In this document: positions 7,933-13,845 of the stretch, piece after piece | How positions within the stretch are numbered: the stretch's first letter is position 1 | Layout of the letters: each line of letters begins with the position of its first letter | NCBI GenBank assembly: GCA_017405545.1 | Contig: JAFRAF010000154.1 | Coordinates: forward strand, 1 to 13,896 | DNA length: 13,896 nucleotides | Direction of reading: 5' to 3' | Source: Oscillospiraceae bacterium | GTDB lineage: Bacteria > Bacillota > Clostridia > Oscillospirales > Oscillospiraceae | Made by a program: the position numbers and the translations under genes | The notes under the pieces: model-generated | Databases searched by the model: none | What the model was told of the DNA's origin: nothing | What the model saw: only the letters and a program-made list of their open reading frames with translations

Positions 7933-8664
7933 ATGTACATAGATGTTAACGGCGTTGGTCTGTACTACGAGGTCACGGGCTCCGGCCCTGCCCTTGTCTT
8001 CATCCACGGCAACAGTGAGAGCCATGATATCTTCAACGCCCTGGCAAACAGCCTGTCAGACAGCTTTACCGCATATCTGCCTGACAGCCGGGGCCACGGC
8101 CAGAGCCAGCCCGTCAAAGCTCTGCATTACGAGGATATGGCGGAGGACTACGCCCGCTTTATAGCCGTGCTGGGCCTGTATAAACCCATTGTAGTCGGCT
8201 TTTCGGACGGGGCCATAATCGGGCTCATGCTTGCCGCAAAATACCCGGACATGCTGGGCGGACTTATCGCATGCGGGGCCAACACCAATCCGGGCGGGCT
8301 GAAAAAGCAGACCCTTATAACCAGCAGGCTCATATACACCGTGAGCCGTTCTCCCTATCTGAAGCTCATGGTCACAGAGCCGGACTTGACGCCCGAGCTG
8401 CTGGGCAAGATTACCGTTCCCACGCTGGTCACCGCCGGCAGCGGCGACGTGATAAAGCAGTCGGACACTGAGCTCATCGCAAAGTCCATACCTGAGGCCG
8501 AGCTCCGCATATTCAAGGGCGAGAATCACAGCAGCTACGTGGTAAACAGCAGATTTTTGGAGCCGATCATAAGGGAGTTCTTCCGGCGGGTCGTAATTTG
8601 GCTGGAGGAGGAGATAAAACACGAAAAAGAAGCGGAAAACGGGCAGGAAAATGTCGAGATCTGA
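7933..8664 (+). CDS. Alpha/beta hydrolase
   Basis: A 243-residue cytoplasmic hydrolase of unknown substrate. The fold's signatures are visible: the oxyanion loop HGN (25-27), DSRGHGQS (51-58), the nucleophile elbow GFSDG with S91, the acid D172 (AGSGD) and the catalytic H199 (GENHS). There is no signal peptide. The last 20 residues are charged (EEEIKHEKEAENGQE). ATG 7933 has GGAGG six to seven bases upstream. The frame is open 23 codons further upstream, but that part overlaps the promoter. It is divergent from sfsA, and no partner gene indicates a pathway. A GGCAGGA/TCCTGCC inverted repeat spans its stop codon (8642-8675) with six T further down (8691-8696), possibly a weak terminator. Confidence 0.9.
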   Translation: MYIDVNGVGLYYEVTGSGPALVFIHGNSESHDIFNALANSLSDSFTAYLPDSRGHGQSQPVKALHYEDMAEDYARFIAVLGLYKPIVVGFSDGAIIGLMLAAKYPDMLGGLIACGANTNPGGLKKQTLITSRLIYTVSRSPYLKLMVTEPDLTPELLGKITVPTLVTAGSGDVIKQSDTELIAKSIPEAELRIFKGENHSSYVVNSRFLEPIIREFFRRVVIWLEEEIKHEKEAENGQENVEI

Positions 8665-8701
8665 TGAATCCTGCCGCCCGGTTAATCGCATTTTTTGCCA
8701 T

Positions 8702-8715
8702 AAAATCATGATTTT
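8702..8715. repeat. Perfect 14-bp palindrome AAAATCATGATTTT
   Basis: The palindrome lies downstream of the hydrolase and about 100 bases before the importer promoter. It may be part of an untidy terminator or a protein-binding site. Confidence 0.45.
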
Positions 8716-8735
8716 TACAACTTTTTTGCTTTCTT

Positions 8736-8749
8736 AATCAAATTTGATT
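8736..8749. repeat. Perfect 14-bp palindrome AATCAAATTTGATT
   Basis: A second AT-rich palindrome, 20 bases beyond the first and about 58 bases upstream of the importer promoter's -35. It is a candidate operator for the importer operon; no regulator is identified. Confidence 0.45.
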
Positions 8750-8793
8750 TAAATGCTCCGTATTATTCCGAAAAATTTGTCTATATTGACACT

Positions 8794-8821
8794 TTGCTTT
8801 TTGCATAAAAAGTGCTAAACT
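8794..8821 (+). promoter_or_regulatory. Predicted promoter of the aromatic amino acid-type ABC operon
   Basis: The best fit is TTGCTT (8794-8799), a 16-base spacer and TAAACT (8816-8821) with a TGn extension (GTGCTAAACT). A perfect TTGACA at 8786-8791 is too far from this -10 (24 bases). An inverted repeat CACTTT/AAAGTG (8790-8795 and 8809-8814) spans the spacer and could be an operator. Transcription would start near 8828, about 40 bases before the leader ORF. Confidence 0.55.
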
Positions 8822-8869
8822 TTAGGGCAGCAAATGGTTACATTATGCATTCGGAAGGGATGAGCTTTG

Positions 8870-9004
8870 ATGGTAATGATAAATTCAGTCAATCAGATCG
8901 CCAATGTCTCAGTCTGCGCGGATGAAAGTGTGATCATCGCTAAAAGAGCGGATTTTGTGTCTTATCCCTTTTTCCGATTTTGCTTTGAAGAAAACAGGAT
9001 ATGA
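8870..9004 (+). CDS. Leader peptide with clustered Phe codons (attenuator)
   Basis: This 44-codon frame is too short for usual gene calling. Codons 29-39 read F-V-S-Y-P-F-F-R-F-C-F: five Phe and one Tyr in eleven codons, with no Phe or Tyr in the first 28. The stop TGA (9002-9004) is one base before the 5' arm of the antiterminator (9006). GGAAGGG (8853-8859) is 10 bases before the ATG, or 7 before an in-frame TTG at 8867, so the exact start is open. I infer that it is translated as a sensor: slow Phe-tRNA supply would stall ribosomes on codons 34-39, leaving the antiterminator arm free. The long, uninformative N-terminal half is unusual for such peptides. Confidence 0.6.
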   Translation: MVMINSVNQIANVSVCADESVIIAKRADFVSYPFFRFCFEENRI

Positions 9005-9072
9005 TTCAAATCTGCGAGGGCAATAACGGACCGATCATGCGGCTTCGTCAGATTTGATGGAGCCGGTTTTTT
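8984..9072 (+). promoter_or_regulatory. Predicted ribosome-mediated transcription attenuator
   Basis: Three competing pairings fit the classical scheme. 1:2 is TTTGAA (8984-8989) with TTCAAA (9005-9010). 2:3, the antiterminator, is TCAAATCTG (9006-9014) with CAGATTTGA (9049-9057), extended by CGAGG (9015-9019) with CTTCG (9043-9047) after one bulged base: 14 pairs in all. 3:4 is the terminator at 9040-9072. A ribosome at the stop codon would cover 9006-9014 and allow termination; one stalled at Phe codons 34-39 would cover region 1 and allow antitermination. CAATAA (9021-9026) can also pair with TTATTG (9071-9076). No T-box consensus (AGGGTGGNACCGCG) is present. Confidence 0.65.
9040..9072 (+). 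terminator. Intrinsic terminator in the leader of the ABC operon
   Basis: CGGCTTCGTCA (9040-9050) pairs with TGATGGAGCCG (9055-9065): 11 pairs including two G-U pairs, GATT loop, then G and six T (9067-9072). The wobble pairs fold in plus-strand RNA. It lies 45 bases before the first structural gene and after the leader ORF, so it must be read through for expression. Confidence 0.8.
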
Positions 9073-9116
9073 ATTGCTCGGAAGTCTTGATATCAATCAA
9101 AAACAGGAGGAAAAAA

Positions 9117-10199
9117 ATGAAAAAGATCTTATCCCTTATTCTCGCGCTGATGATGATATTCAGCCTTGCAGCCTGTGGGACCGCCGACTCCGGCACTGAT
9201 GCCGGCGACGCCGCCTCCACTGAAGACGCTGCCACCGAAGACGCCGCTGCCGCTGAGGATGCCACCGCTGAGGGCGACGCCGACGCAGCCGAGGCCGAAG
9301 AGACCGCCGAGGCCGGCGATGTCGTCTACAATGTAGGCATTTGCCAGCTGGTCACCCACGCCGCTCTTGACGCCGCTACCCAGGGCTTCAAGGACGCTCT
9401 CACCGACAAGCTGGGCGACTCTGTTGTATTCAATGAGCAGAACGCCGCCGGCGACAACCAGACCTGCGCCACCATCTGCAACCAGCTGGTAAGCGAAAAG
9501 GTCGACCTGATCCTGGCCAACGCAACTCCCGCTCTGCAGGCAGCTGCTTCCGCCACCAACGAGATCCCCATTATCGGCACTTCCATCACCGATTACGGCA
9601 CCGCCCTTGACATCGACAACTGGACCGGCACCACCGGCACCAACATCTCCGGCACCTCCGACCTGGCTCCTCTGAAGGAGCAGGCTCAGATGCTCAACGA
9701 GCTGTTCCCCGACGCCAAGAACGTGGGTCTCATCTACTGCTCTTCCGAGGCAAACAGCCTGTATCAGATAGGCGTTGTCAAGGCTGAGCTGGAGAGCATG
9801 GGCTACACCTGCACCGAGTTCACCTTCGTGGATTCCAACGACGTGTCCTCTGTCTGCCAGTCCGCCGCCTCCAACAGCGACGTTCTTTACGCTCCCACCG
9901 ACAACACTGTGGCCTCATGCGCCGAGCTCATCAACAATGTCTGCCTGACCGCTGGTGTTCCCATCGTAGCCGGTGAGGAGGGCATGTGCGCCGCTCTGGG
10001 CGTAGCCACTCTGTCCATCAGCTACTACGACATCGGCTACACCGCCGGCGAGATGGCCTATGACATCCTTGTAAACGGCGCTGACATCTCCAACATGGAG
10101 GTCCAGTTCGCTCCCAACGTTGTTAAGAAGTACAATCCCACTATCTGTGAGCAGCTCGGCATCACAGTTCCCGACGATTACGAAGCAATCGGCGAATAA
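9117..10199 (+). CDS. ABC transporter substrate-binding lipoprotein (TrpX type, ABC_sub_bind family)
   Basis: The extracytoplasmic binding protein of a TrpXYZ-type importer, 360 residues. It starts with a signal peptide and lipobox (MKKILSLILALMMIFSLAAC, C20 lipidated). An acidic linker of Ala, Asp, Glu and Thr follows (about 21-67), then a two-lobe periplasmic-binding-protein-like domain beginning VVYNVGICQLVTH. Family members are annotated as tryptophan/tyrosine binding; the Phe-rich leader here suggests Phe or a mix of aromatic residues. ATG 9117 has CAGGAGG seven bases upstream. Codon use is as biased as in rplL (GCC, ACC, GAC, AAG), which points to high expression. It is the first structural gene of a three-gene operon. 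Confidence 0.92.
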   Translation: MKKILSLILALMMIFSLAACGTADSGTDAGDAASTEDAATEDAAAAEDATAEGDADAAEAEETAEAGDVVYNVGICQLVTHAALDAATQGFKDALTDKLGDSVVFNEQNAAGDNQTCATICNQLVSEKVDLILANATPALQAAASATNEIPIIGTSITDYGTALDIDNWTGTTGTNISGTSDLAPLKEQAQMLNELFPDAKNVGLIYCSSEANSLYQIGVVKAELESMGYTCTEFTFVDSNDVSSVCQSAASNSDVLYAPTDNTVASCAELINNVCLTAGVPIVAGEEGMCAALGVATLSISYYDIGYTAGEMAYDILVNGADISNMEVQFAPNVVKKYNPTICEQLGITVPDDYEAIGE

Positions 10200-10227: not shown

Positions 10228-11175
10228 ATGGGTGCAATACAATTCTCAGCGCTGCTTACTGCGCTGCCCGGTAACATATCACAAGGTCTTATTTGGGGCA
10301 TTATGGCGCTGGGCGTTTTCATAACATTCAAATTGCTCAATTTTGCCGATCTGTCTGTAGACGGTACCATGGCCACAGGCGGCGCAGTAGTCGTGGTCCT
10401 GATATTGTCTGGATGGAATCCGCTGGCCGCCCTTCTGGTGGCGTTCATCGCGGGTATTTTAGCTGGATTAGTTACAGGCATATTACATACACTGCTCGGT
10501 ATACCGGATATTTTATCCGGTATACTGACGCAATTGGCGTTATATTCCATCAACCTGCGCATCCTGGGCGGCAAAGCCAACCAGGGCATTTCTGTTGATA
10601 AGTACGACCTGCTTATCAGTTCCAGGACTGTCAGCCACGCCATAGTCATCGGTCTTGTATTCACGGTTGCCCTTATAATCATCCTGTATTGGTACTTCGG
10701 CACCGAGCAGGGCTGCGCCATCCGCGCTACCGGAAGCAACGAGCACATGGCCCGGGCCCAGGGCATCAACACCAAGACCATGAAGATACTGGCCCTGGCC
10801 CTGTCCAACGGCATCGTCGCCATATCCGGCGGCCTGCTTGCCCAGTATCAGGGCTTCGCTGACGTGTCCATGGGACGCGGCGCCATAGTCATCGGTCTTG
10901 CCGCCGTGATCATAGGCGAGGTGCTTTTGAATGCCGTATTCAAAAAGCCCACTCCCTTCACCGTCCGTCTGGGCTTCATCGCCCTCGGCGGCGTTATCTA
11001 CTACATCGTCATCGGCATAGTCCTGTGGCTGAGGATGCCTTCCAACGACATGAAGCTCTTCAGTGCCATCATCGTCGCCATATTCCTGGCCGTCCCCTAT
11101 CTTAAGGATAAGTCGGGCTTCAAAAAGGCACCGAAAAAAGTCAAAAAAGCTGAGGAGGTCGAGGAAAATGCTTAA
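10228..11175 (+). CDS. ABC transporter permease (TrpY type)
   Basis: The membrane subunit of the importer, 315 residues with about eight to nine hydrophobic segments. Typical family stretches are LLNFADLSVDGTMATGGAV, SINLRILGGKAN, RATGSNEHMARAQGI and SNGIVAISGGLLAQYQGF, close to the branched-chain/ribose permease fold. The C-terminal tail (about 290-315) is Lys/Glu-rich and cytoplasmic. The start 10228 has AAGGA about 10 bases upstream and lies 28 bases after the binding-protein gene. The first 110 codons use many AT-rich codons (ATA, TTA), unlike the GC-biased remainder and unlike its neighbours. A strong hairpin lies in that part. The end overlaps the ATPase start by 8 bases. Confidence 0.92.
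   Translation: MGAIQFSALLTALPGNISQGLIWGIMALGVFITFKLLNFADLSVDGTMATGGAVVVVLILSGWNPLAALLVAFIAGILAGLVTGILHTLLGIPDILSGILTQLALYSINLRILGGKANQGISVDKYDLLISSRTVSHAIVIGLVFTVALIIILYWYFGTEQGCAIRATGSNEHMARAQGINTKTMKILALALSNGIVAISGGLLAQYQGFADVSMGRGAIVIGLAAVIIGEVLLNAVFKKPTPFTVRLGFIALGGVIYYIVIGIVLWLRMPSNDMKLFSAIIVAIFLAVPYLKDKSGFKKAPKKVKKAEEVEENA
10497..10527 (+). other. 14-bp hairpin inside the permease gene
   Basis: CGGTATACCGGATA (10497-10510) and TATCCGGTATACTG (10514-10527) pair fully, with one G-U, around a TTT loop. It encodes a GIPDILSGIL stretch of the permease. Such a stem is far stronger than expected by chance in coding DNA and could slow ribosomes, protect the upstream binding-protein mRNA, or bind a protein. 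Confidence 0.7.
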
Positions 11176-11962
11176 TATATTAAAACTCTCTAAAACCTTC
11201 TCAAAAGGTACCGTAAACGAAAAAGTGGCCATCAGGGATGTGACCATCACATTCAACGACCAGGACTTCGTCACCGTAATCGGAGGAAACGGCGCCGGCA
11301 AATCCACCCTGCTCAACCTGATTTCAGGCAAGCTGGAAACCGACAGCGGCTCCATATCACTGGACGGGGTGGAGATATCCCGCCTGCCCGAGCACAAGCG
11401 TGCGCCTATGCTGGGCAGAGTGTTCCAGGACCCCATGATGGGCACAGCCGCCGACATGATGATAGAGGAGAACATGGCTCTGGCCTACAGACGCGGAAAG
11501 TCCCGCGGTCTCCGCTGGGGCATAGGCAAGAAGGAGCGGGAGTTCTACCGCGAGCATCTGGAAAAGCTTGGCCTCGGCCTTGAGGACAGGCTGACCACAA
11601 AGGTCGGACTTCTGTCCGGCGGACAGAGGCAGGCTCTGACACTGCTCATGGCGACCATGGAGCAGCCCAAGCTGCTGCTGCTGGATGAGCACACCGCCGC
11701 CCTCGACCCCAAGACAGCCCTCAAAGTGCTCGAGCTCTCCGATCAGATGATTCGCGAGCAGGCTCTGACCGCCATCATGGTCACCCACAACATGAAGGAC
11801 GCCATAACCTACGGCAACAGGCTCATAATGATGCACGAGGGACGCATAATCCTTGACGTTTCCGGTGAGGAGAAAAAACAACTCACCGTTGAAAACCTGC
11901 TGAAGAAATTCTCCGAGGTAAGCGGCGACACCTTCGACAGCGACAAGGCGCTTCTGGCGTAG
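11168..11962 (+). CDS. ABC transporter ATP-binding protein (TrpZ type)
   Basis: The ATPase that powers the importer, 264 residues. Motifs are Walker A GGNGAGKST (39-47), Q-loop Q87 (VFQDPMMGTA), signature LSGGQRQAL (149-157), Walker B LLLLDEH (169-175, catalytic E174) and switch H207 (MVTHNM). Long family members of this kind have the RKGKSRGLRWG-like insertion seen at about 108-120. The start ATG 11168 overlaps the permease stop by 8 bases, with GAGGAGG just upstream, so translation is coupled. The frame is open upstream but there it is only the permease in another phase. It ends 37 bases before the operon's terminator. Confidence 0.95.
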   Translation: MLNILKLSKTFSKGTVNEKVAIRDVTITFNDQDFVTVIGGNGAGKSTLLNLISGKLETDSGSISLDGVEISRLPEHKRAPMLGRVFQDPMMGTAADMMIEENMALAYRRGKSRGLRWGIGKKEREFYREHLEKLGLGLEDRLTTKVGLLSGGQRQALTLLMATMEQPKLLLLDEHTAALDPKTALKVLELSDQMIREQALTAIMVTHNMKDAITYGNRLIMMHEGRIILDVSGEEKKQLTVENLLKKFSEVSGDTFDSDKALLA

Positions 11963-12136: not shown

Positions 12137-12565
12137 ATGCGAAGACAGATCGACAAGATTGACTGCCATCTGATGAAGCTCTACCGGACCGCGATGAACG
12201 TACAGGAGTATTACGATTCCTGCATCGCGCCATCCGGTATAAGCTCCAAACAGTTCACTACTCTCAGACATCTGAGCTTTTTTGAGGGATGTTCGACAAG
12301 TGAGCTCGCGGAGCATATGTATCTCTCACGCTCTACCCTCTCGCGAAATTTGAAGCCTCTGTTCACCGCCGGATTAATCGCGGACCTCAAGGAGCCCGGT
12401 GCCCGTGACAGCATACTCACTCTCACTGAAAAGGGCAAAGCCGTTTACGCGGAAGCTACCGCCCTGTGGGAAAAAGCTCAGCAGGCATACACGGCAAAAC
12501 TCGGGGAGGAGACCCTGAGATCCTTCGAAGGGGTTCTCGATCAGCTGCAGGACATACTGACATAG
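12137..12565 (+). CDS. MarR-family transcriptional regulator, first of a tandem pair
   Basis: A 142-residue winged helix-turn-helix regulator of usual MarR length. The DNA-binding core lies at about 50-100: STSELAEHMYLSRSTLSRNLKPL (recognition helix region) followed by a wing with the hallmark D-R/S segment (GARDSILTLTEKGK). Long terminal helices for dimerisation flank it. It is about 41% identical to the next gene (58 of 140 positions in my ungapped hand alignment), so the two arose by duplication. The start ATG 12137 aligns exactly with the start of the paralogue, but has only a weak and distant TAGGA upstream. The ligand is unknown. Confidence 0.88.
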   Translation: MRRQIDKIDCHLMKLYRTAMNVQEYYDSCIAPSGISSKQFTTLRHLSFFEGCSTSELAEHMYLSRSTLSRNLKPLFTAGLIADLKEPGARDSILTLTEKGKAVYAEATALWEKAQQAYTAKLGEETLRSFEGVLDQLQDILT

Positions 12566-12668
12566 AGAGTGAAACACTAGGGGACCCGGACAGTCTGTAC
12601 GCGGTTTTATCATTCTTGAGTCCACTGCGCCTCTTTTCCACAGCCTCATATAAAACGGAGTGATTTAA

Positions 12669-13091
12669 ATGGGAAAACCGATAAAGAATGTTGAGTGCCA
12701 CTATCTTAAACTCTTTCGCACGAAACAAAACGTTGAAACAATCTACGACAAGCACATGAAACCCTCGGGTATCTCTCTGGGGCAGTCTTTTCTCCTGACA
12801 GAGATACTGAAAAACCAGGGCTGCACTATGAACAGGCTCTCAGAGATTACCTGCCTGGACCGCTCCTCCATCTCAAGGGCGCTCAAGCCGCTCATGGTAG
12901 CAAATCTGGTCGTTGATGACAACGACCCCGGCAAGCGTGACAGTGTGCTCATGCTGACGGAGGAGGGGAAAAAAGCGCAGCAGCGGGCCATCTCATGCTG
13001 GAAGCAGGCCCAAAAAGAATACGAGGAGATGCTCGGCGAGGAAAAAGTCAGAGAGTTTGAGTCAATAATGGAGGCATTTGAGAACGTTTAG
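12669..13091 (+). CDS. MarR-family transcriptional regulator, second of a tandem pair
   Basis: A 140-residue MarR-type regulator with the same layout as its upstream paralogue: N-terminal helices (IKNVECHYLKLFRT), the helix-turn-helix (NRLSEITCLDRSSISRALKP) and the wing (PGKRDSVLMLTEEGKK). Both keep the PSGIS stretch before the DNA-binding domain. The ATG has GGAG 8 bases upstream. It begins 103 bases after the first marR stop and ends 97 bases before the acetyltransferase. That gap contains two palindromes, which makes it the likely direct regulator of the enzyme. It may form heterodimers with its paralogue, which is inference only. Confidence 0.9.
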   Translation: MGKPIKNVECHYLKLFRTKQNVETIYDKHMKPSGISLGQSFLLTEILKNQGCTMNRLSEITCLDRSSISRALKPLMVANLVVDDNDPGKRDSVLMLTEEGKKAQQRAISCWKQAQKEYEEMLGEEKVREFESIMEAFENV

Positions 13092-13111
13092 TTCCATTTT
13101 TTTCCATTATC

Positions 13112-13125
13112 GTTGCGTATGCAAC
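13112..13125. promoter_or_regulatory. Candidate MarR operator GTTGC-N4-GCAAC
   Basis: GTTGC (13112-13116) and GCAAC (13121-13125) flank GTAT. The TTGC/GCAA half-sites resemble known MarR-family operators and recur as GCAATA/TATTGC before the first marR gene. Confidence 0.5.
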
Positions 13126-13143
13126 AATCAAGCCATTGTAATC

Positions 13144-13171
13144 ATATTGTCCCCGGACAATATTATAAAAT
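13144..13171 (+). promoter_or_regulatory. Palindromic operator and -10 region before the acetyltransferase
   Basis: A perfect palindrome has 9-bp arms ATATTGTCC (13144-13152) and GGACAATAT (13155-13163) around CC. It runs straight into the -10-like TATTAT/TATAAA (13161-13169). No good -35 is visible, so activation or a weak promoter is possible. A repressor bound here would block RNA polymerase. Confidence 0.6.
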
Positions 13172-13188
13172 AGGAAGGGAGAAATAAA

Positions 13189-13845
13189 ATGACAATCGAG
13201 AACAAATTCACCCCTATCGACATGGAGACCTGGCCCAACGCCGGTACCTTTATGGCCTTTACACAGATGGATCTCAGAGGCTTCGCACTCACTGTCAACA
13301 TCGACATAACCCATATGCTGGAGGTTGTCAAGGATTCAGGTTATAAGTTCTGGCCCACATGGGTCTGGCTCGTGACCAGAAATCTCAACAAGCAGCAGGA
13401 TTTCAGAGTGGGCATAGAGGACGGCGTCGTCGGCTATTACGAGACCCTGAACCCCCTGTCACCCATACTCCACGATGACACCATGACCATCACCATGTTC
13501 ACTGAGGACTACTATGACAGCCTCAAGGAGTTCCACGAGGCTTACATGAACCACGTCAAGGAGTTTGAGAAGATCCCCTCCGGCTTTGCCAATCATCCCC
13601 CTCATTCATACTTCACCATCGCTTCACTGCCCTGGTTCTCGTTCACCCACTTCCACACCCGTCACGAACTGCAGAAGGATCACTTTGCGCCCCTTATAGA
13701 AACCGGAAAGCTTTTTGAGGAAAACGGCAAGAAGATGATGCCCCTGTCTATGACCTGTCACCACGCCACGCTTGATGGGTACAATATAAAGATCTTCCTC
13801 GAGGATCTTCAGGCAGATATGGAGAACCTTGAGAAATTACTGTAA
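13189..13845 (+). CDS. Chloramphenicol acetyltransferase-like enzyme (CatA family fold)
   Basis: An acetyl-CoA-dependent O-acetyltransferase of 218 residues, the usual CAT length. The active-site motif is HHATLDG (191-197), giving catalytic H192 and structural D196. The substrate-side segment LPWFSFTHF (147-155) matches the CAT stretch that contributes the conserved Ser. The N-terminal region (YKFWPTWVWLVTRNLNKQQDFRVGIEDG) also fits the fold. It is diverged from classical CatA, so the true substrate may be chloramphenicol, a related acceptor, or something else. The ATG has AGGAAGGGAG upstream. It is preceded by two MarR regulators and palindromic sites, which points to induced expression. No mobile element flanks it. 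Confidence 0.88.
   Translation: MTIENKFTPIDMETWPNAGTFMAFTQMDLRGFALTVNIDITHMLEVVKDSGYKFWPTWVWLVTRNLNKQQDFRVGIEDGVVGYYETLNPLSPILHDDTMTITMFTEDYYDSLKEFHEAYMNHVKEFEKIPSGFANHPPHSYFTIASLPWFSFTHFHTRHELQKDHFAPLIETGKLFEENGKKMMPLSMTCHHATLDGYNIKIFLEDLQADMENLEKLL

Follow-up and report, generated by a model that had tools for sequence, protein, structure and literature searches.

The window, a stretch of 13,896 nucleotides of Oscillospiraceae DNA, very probably carries a ribosome-mediated transcription attenuator that controls an ABC importer for aromatic amino acids, probably tyrosine/phenylalanine. An aromatic-rich leader ORF is followed by two mutually exclusive hairpins, folding calculations give a switch between them, and the arrangement recurs before homologous genes. 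That the window leader is translated, that ribosomes stall on it, that transcription terminates and in which direction the system responds are inferences, which run as follows. When charged tRNA-Phe and tRNA-Tyr are ample, the ribosome would reach the stop codon (9002-9004) and cover the start of the antiterminator arm (from 9006); with this arm covered, 9040-9065 would fold as a terminator and transcription would end near 9072. A shortage of charged tRNA-Phe or tRNA-Tyr would instead stall the ribosome at codons 32-39 and leave the arm 9006-9019 free. The free arm would then pair with 9043-9057 before the 3' arm of the terminator is made, and RNA polymerase would read into the importer genes. 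The leader and importer features are all on the + strand.

The leader peptide ORF (8870-9004) comprises 44 codons, reads MVMINSVNQIANVSVCADESVIIAKRADFVSYPFFRFCFEENRI and ends with the TGA at 9002-9004. A direct check placed Phe at codons 29, 34, 35, 37 and 39 and Tyr at codon 32, just where the original prediction had them. The putative regulatory codons run from Tyr 32 to Phe 39 (YPFFRFCF, 8963-8986). Upstream of the ATG of this short ORF lies a Shine-Dalgarno-like AAGG (8855-8858), a 4-base match to AAGGAGG, so that sequence signs of translation are present. Aromatic codons as dense per 12 as those of the ORF were obtained in 8 of 2000 dinucleotide shuffles of 8820-9039. A consensus scan of 8650-9150 gave no sigma-70 consensus promoter on the + strand; a possible extended −10 element, TGCTAAACT (8813-8821), is proposed tentatively from the sequence only, and the transcript would then start at about 8828.

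The TGA stops one base before the antiterminator arm, which starts at 9006, as had been claimed. The predicted antiterminator was also found on direct checking: 9006-9019 pairs with 9043-9057 through 14 pairs with one bulge (9048), and the energy of this duplex is −16.5 kcal/mol. When 9005-9039 was considered against the 5' side of the terminator, a duplex this strong appeared in 8 of 2000 dinucleotide shuffles. The exclusive terminator (9040-9072) likewise has the predicted 11 pairs and six T; its stem (9040-9065) closes a 4-base loop, and a G stands between the stem and the U run (9067-9072). The third proposed structure, a 1:2 stem (8984-8989 with 9005-9010), is present but weak, as the segment that holds it (8980-9015) folds at only −1.8 kcal/mol, and its role is doubtful. 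Judged at the level of sequence, the window leader thus appears to have the testable features of the leader-peptide attenuator class, save a firm 1:2 hairpin.

We then calculated the switch with a model in which a codon occupies the A site and the RNA is free from 12 bases downstream. For nascent RNA reaching 9059, the antiterminator probability was 0.93-0.94 for A-site positions 8948-8993; it fell to 0.79 at 8996, 0.48 at 8999 and, once the stop codon occupied the A site, 0.01. Folding with ribosome masking therefore gave the contrast that the original prediction called for (0.94 versus 0.01 at the stop). Nascent RNA reaching only 9054 gave a lower range, 0.34-0.71, over A-site positions 8948-8996, with 0.44 at codon 34 and 0.66-0.71 for codons 35-39; the value at the stop was 0.01 as before. 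In the full-length leader at equilibrium the terminator dominates: its probability has a minimum of 0.60-0.65 with codons 34-37 (FFRF) in the A site, is 0.78 at codon 33 and is at least 0.90 at the other computed positions. In this model, the antiterminator, mutually exclusive with the terminator, would be masked by a ribosome at the stop and free when the ribosome stalls earlier.

At the DNA level, a similarity search of 60 genomes, including the window's own, gave, apart from the window, just one match of 26 bases at the ribosome-binding-site region and no alignable similar leader. We looked upstream of homologous genes. The binding protein of the importer was found (E <= 1e-40) in 203 of 400 genomes of the family, and 162 upstream regions were collected: 149 same-family copies, window included, taken from among the matches listed (the G285 copy, at a contig start, was left out), and 13 from named records. 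A strong terminator (at least as stable as −14 kcal/mol and with its end 18-112 bases ahead of the gene) was present in 48 of the 162 regions, all of them from the window's family. In 43 of these 48 regions we found an ORF that reaches 4 or more aromatic codons per 12, compared with 7.6 expected from dinucleotide shuffles; at least 6 were reached in 25 (0.36 expected) and ten in 4 (0 expected). Among the other 114 regions, 108 had enough sequence, and 35 of them reached 4 aromatic codons (20 expected) and 6 reached 6 (1.1 expected), an excess suggesting that the set probably misses a few leaders whose terminators are weaker. At the thresholds of this analysis, terminator and aromatic ORF together were absent from 119 of the 162 regions. 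Homologous leaders that keep the hairpins while lacking the Phe cluster would have spoken against the proposal; four regions (L067, L068, L150 and L154) carried a terminator and no aromatic ORF (best count 1).

These four were removed, and the 44 leaders kept (L161, with a count of 3, was retained) are spread over 19 genera. For 43 of the 44 an in-frame start could be assigned; each is an ATG preceded by a Shine-Dalgarno sequence with 4 or more matching bases. The two other frames over a similar span gave such a start in 7 and 4 of the 44. Cut at these starts, the 44 peptides amount to 1518 residues with 187 Phe, 151 Tyr and 0 Trp. As Trp was counted among the aromatic residues when the ORFs were selected for density, the Phe and Tyr numbers are inflated while the absence of Trp is not. 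Examples are MAKRVFARRFYYYYF, MPFVNFVVAYYYYYFVTR and ...FAGFFGFVYFYFYFF..., and another, MTAARFSILASYPFFFYFKKRG, is close in look to the SYPFFRFCF of the window. The view that the leader answers to Phe (and Tyr) and not to Trp is supported by these peptides, by the 43 aromatic ORFs and by the lack of any Rfam match in the window; the emphasis that had been placed on Phe needs refining, as the relatives' leaders hold similar amounts of Phe and Tyr. For the window leader itself, the Phe-heavy codons would leave Phe, or both Phe and Tyr, as the sensed signal.

We extended the calculation to the 44 leaders by computing the probability that upstream pairing ties up the 5' arm of the terminator in nascent RNA that stops short of the 3' arm. 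With the ribosome on aromatic codons the mean was 0.70, compared with 0.50 for shuffled spacers (Wilcoxon p = 1.5e-6); with the ribosome at the stop it was 0.37, compared with 0.30 for shuffles. The fall from aromatic codon to stop is partly trivial because less RNA is free, and the shuffles also went from 0.50 to 0.30. For 17 of the 44 leaders, at most 2 of their own 40 shuffles reached the observed value. The window leader is outside that group and unremarkable (0.73 at aromatic codons, 0.71 at the stop, reached by 7 of 40 shuffles), because any upstream pairing counts in this test, whereas the window-specific calculation (nascent RNA to 9059 or 9054) follows the named antiterminator alone. 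At equilibrium, the full-length terminator probability averaged 0.86 at Phe/Tyr codons; it was higher both at other codons (0.92, p = 0.002) and at the stop (0.95, p = 0.0003; 42 of the 44 leaders computable). Large equilibrium switches were obtained for L110 and L127 (terminator 0.02-0.03 versus 0.97 at the stop), L063, L053 and L161; most other leaders switch little, the window leader moderately (0.82 versus 0.96), and L019 runs in reverse (0.63 at Phe/Tyr codons versus 0.57 at the stop). As the terminator averages at least 0.82 over Phe/Tyr codons at equilibrium in 38 of the 44 leaders, the switch would have to be kinetic.

The leader precedes three importer genes. The first, with its Shine-Dalgarno AGGAGG at 9105-9110, encodes a substrate-binding lipoprotein (9117-10199, PF04392); it is followed by a permease (10228-11175, PF02653) and an ATPase (11168-11962, PF00005), whose start at 11168, chosen from the translation (the ORF list gives 11063), overlaps the permease stop. 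About 50 residues rich in Ala, Glu and Asp follow the lipoprotein signal of the binding protein (9180-9330), and in many relatives the match to this protein begins only after that stretch. Against the NCBIfam TrpX equivalog the binding protein scores 220.8 bits, below the curated cut-off of 390, and Trp would be a family label only. By sequence, the nearest solved structure is CD0873 of Clostridioides difficile (PDB 6HNI), a tyrosine binder whose specificity is ascribed to Glu263 and Tyr279 (PMC6816091); at these two places the Phe-bound protein of V. cholerae has Ala/Tyr and the Trp-bound one of S. pneumoniae has Ala/Gln (PMC6816091). The window protein has the same Glu and Tyr, as do 42 others of the first set, and in a wider set Glu/Tyr is present in 100 of 103 (the exceptions are L200, Asp/Tyr; L222, Glu/Phe; and L224, Ala/Tyr). 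The pocket residues do not separate leader-bearing from leaderless copies. The suggestion that the importer carries Phe or mixed aromatic residues despite its Trp label is refined accordingly: from its predicted pocket, the binding protein is more precisely described as of the tyrosine-binding CD0873 type.

By RpoB identity, one genome of the same order (G568) is closer to a Gemmiger MAG (73.3%) than to a Lachnospiraceae MAG (67.3%), and four same-order genomes, three of them from the window's family, have 67.8-69.0% identity with Gemmiger and 63.4-65.3% with Lachnospiraceae; these values are compatible with a placement in Oscillospirales and do not by themselves fix the order or the family. 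Outside the family, the binding protein was found (E <= 1e-60) in 89 of 295 genomes of the order sample, and 60 upstream regions from other families, one per genome and part of those listed, were studied. A terminator (at least as stable as −11 kcal/mol and with its end 15-130 bases ahead of the gene) was present in 19 of the 60, and a T-box motif in 9, all nine among the 19. Rfam, at the gathering threshold, confirmed the T-box in five (L184, L211, L217, L221 and L224) of 39 distinct sister-family loci. The specifier, which we take to be the codon after the stem I GAA, is UAC in L184, L211, L217 and L221 and, slightly offset, in L187, L216 and L219; it is UUC in L224 and, offset, in L208. As read, seven of the nine T-boxes would carry a Tyr specifier. 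The UUC (Phe) T-box of L224 (family f26) stands before the sole Ala/Tyr pocket among the 103, as in the Phe-bound V. cholerae protein, so that specifier and pocket agree; the L208 binding protein has a Glu/Tyr pocket. Two other loci, L174 (...SYYRFMKVRYAGLF...) and L218 (MKRISVHYYYYYYYISAMERPSIN), have unmistakable aromatic leaders, as judged by eye and not against shuffles. In the displayed part of the protein tree, whose branching was read without support values, the L218 gene with its seven-Tyr leader is sister to the Tyr T-box gene L217, which we read as an exchange of sensors. It is reasonably likely that in this clostridial order T-box riboswitches and classical leader-peptide attenuators, the latter with leader peptides of up to seven consecutive Tyr, have been swapped for one another as the tRNA-charging sensor of the Tyr/Phe importer, and probably not just once. 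If so, nature would offer, before one and the same gene, a series of sensors for related signals, from the Tyr T-box and the Phe T-box to the Phe/Tyr leader and the poly-Tyr leader. Four loci of family f18 (L193, L199, L202 and L207) have a strong terminator about 50 bases upstream of the same gene but no T-box and no clear aromatic leader; within the last 150 bases before the binding-protein gene, a hairpin and a TCGGGCAAATGCGGTTTGCGGCTTCG stretch are common to L193 and L199. Perhaps these four loci hold another type of attenuator.

The T-boxes of the sister families raise the question of a leader that binds a ligand or a protein (a riboswitch, a T-box remnant or the target of an antitermination protein) and next to which the ORF would be incidental. 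Eight of the 19 terminator-bearing sister-family loci, the four of f18 among them, have neither a T-box nor a clear aromatic leader, which could be taken in the same sense. In the window's own family the picture is different. A T-box motif of the GTGGTACCGCG type was found within 450 bases upstream in 0 of the 149 same-family loci, window included, and in 0 of the 13 named ones; at the gathering threshold, Rfam gave no T-box on the importer strand in the window and 29 same-family loci and none in 11 named loci, the T-box at L008 sitting on the strand opposite the importer. Over the whole window Rfam gave zero matches at gathering thresholds, and a permissive search of 8780-9120 gave a single chance-level snoRNA match (E = 0.67). 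A T-box or riboswitch match over the region, named at the outset as grounds for abandoning the attenuator, was thus not obtained from Rfam, and a T-box or other known RNA in the window is ruled out on this basis. Since the ORF, its start signals and its Phe/Tyr content also go far beyond chance, we regard a ligand- or protein-binding leader as very unlikely.

Many of the relatives' leaders contain, within the ORF, a GGYCCGC/GCGGGCC hairpin with loops of 3 to 9 bases. It was present at 22 of 27 folded sites, and in two of the other five (L050 and L104) the motif is present elsewhere. Variants that preserve pairing, seen by inspection and not by a formal covariation count, are TGC/GCA in L026, L095, L105 and L156 and CTC/GAG in L158. 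This hairpin bears on another reading, in which the peptide itself and not codon starvation stalls the ribosome, as when the nascent TnaC peptide stalls it with Trp, and free Tyr or Phe would be sensed. A sequence [FY]AG[RLF][FY] does recur in many leaders, as an arrest peptide might. It lies, however, on the GGYCCGC/GCGGGCC hairpin, and as the variants of the latter keep pairing, RNA pairing explains the motif; moreover, other leaders do without it and have plain runs such as YYYYF or seven Tyr, and it is missing from the window leader. Nascent-chain arrest is therefore regarded as very unlikely. Within a codon-sensing attenuator, the in-ORF hairpin may serve as a protector or pause hairpin; the window leader, whose own 1:2 stem is weak, does not have it.

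In L017, L025 and L030 the in-ORF hairpin runs straight into a stretch of T that encodes Phe codons, so that it looks like a terminator or a pausing signal inside the leader itself. Among the 400 family genomes, 14 have a single site with the exact pattern GGTCYGCTWYGCRGGCC: seven of these sites are importer leaders, as told by their place, five lie in long reading frames and two (L246 and L247) are hairpins with no visible importer-type leader. No second target of this leader type was found among these sites of the 400 genomes.

A chance neighbourhood of an ordinary short ORF and an ordinary terminator is also very unlikely. The leader as a whole (8870-9075) does not stand out from shuffles in its folding (z = −1.10, with 30 of 200 shuffles as good), but both the aromatic ORF and the antiterminator of the window are rare among shuffles and the arrangement recurs in most terminator-bearing relatives.

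Ribosome-mediated attenuation is classically represented by the pheA, pheST and trp leaders of Proteobacteria, in which a short ORF has clustered cognate codons, its stop lies beside an antiterminator arm and an exclusive terminator follows. The window leader resembles them in all three respects; it differs in lineage, in having no Rfam match, in preceding an importer rather than biosynthesis or tRNA-charging genes and in mixing Phe with Tyr. For such sensing in Firmicutes, T-boxes were expected. In 2010, according to the account cited, leader-peptide attenuators were known only in Proteobacteria and Actinobacteria, ermC aside, until a Bacillus His leader was predicted (PMC2965389). This leader peptide of hisS*/hisZ is a regular one where relatives have a T-box, but it concerns histidine, tRNA synthetase and biosynthesis genes, and Bacilli (PMC2965389). 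The Leu-rich ilv attenuator of Staphylococcus aureus provides experimental support for leader-peptide attenuation in a Gram-positive bacterium, in that case for branched-chain amino acids and a biosynthetic operon (PMC5794164). The uORFC-13-1 motif before aroF in Acholeplasma belongs to the aromatic pathway and is a predicted uORF that has one or more Phe codons and adjoins a terminator; it differs in being based on 24 sequences from one genus and environmental DNA and in preceding a biosynthetic gene, and Tyr runs are unmentioned in the passage describing it (PMC8632094). In trpXYZ of Streptococcus suis, of a related importer family, a tRNA-charging sensor also chooses between terminator and antiterminator; there the sensor is a Trp T-box and the importer takes up Trp (PMC9382623).

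Among the matches listed in a full-text search of open-licence PMC papers, we found no account of an importer of this kind preceded by a leader rich in Phe or Tyr, and the attenuator may to that extent be called undescribed, as originally supposed. One lineage would thus rely on Phe/Tyr leader peptides, which vary in both sequence and layout, to control an importer that is under T-boxes in members of sister families. With the same importer under leader peptides or T-boxes, the replacement of one RNA sensor by another becomes directly testable. For annotation, an importer family labelled tryptophan would read as tyrosine/phenylalanine by its leader codons, its binding pocket and the T-box specifiers before homologous genes. 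Beyond the importer, the window contains, at 12137-13845, two successive MarR-like regulators and a CatA-type protein that resembles chloramphenicol acetyltransferase and scores below the NCBIfam cut-off.
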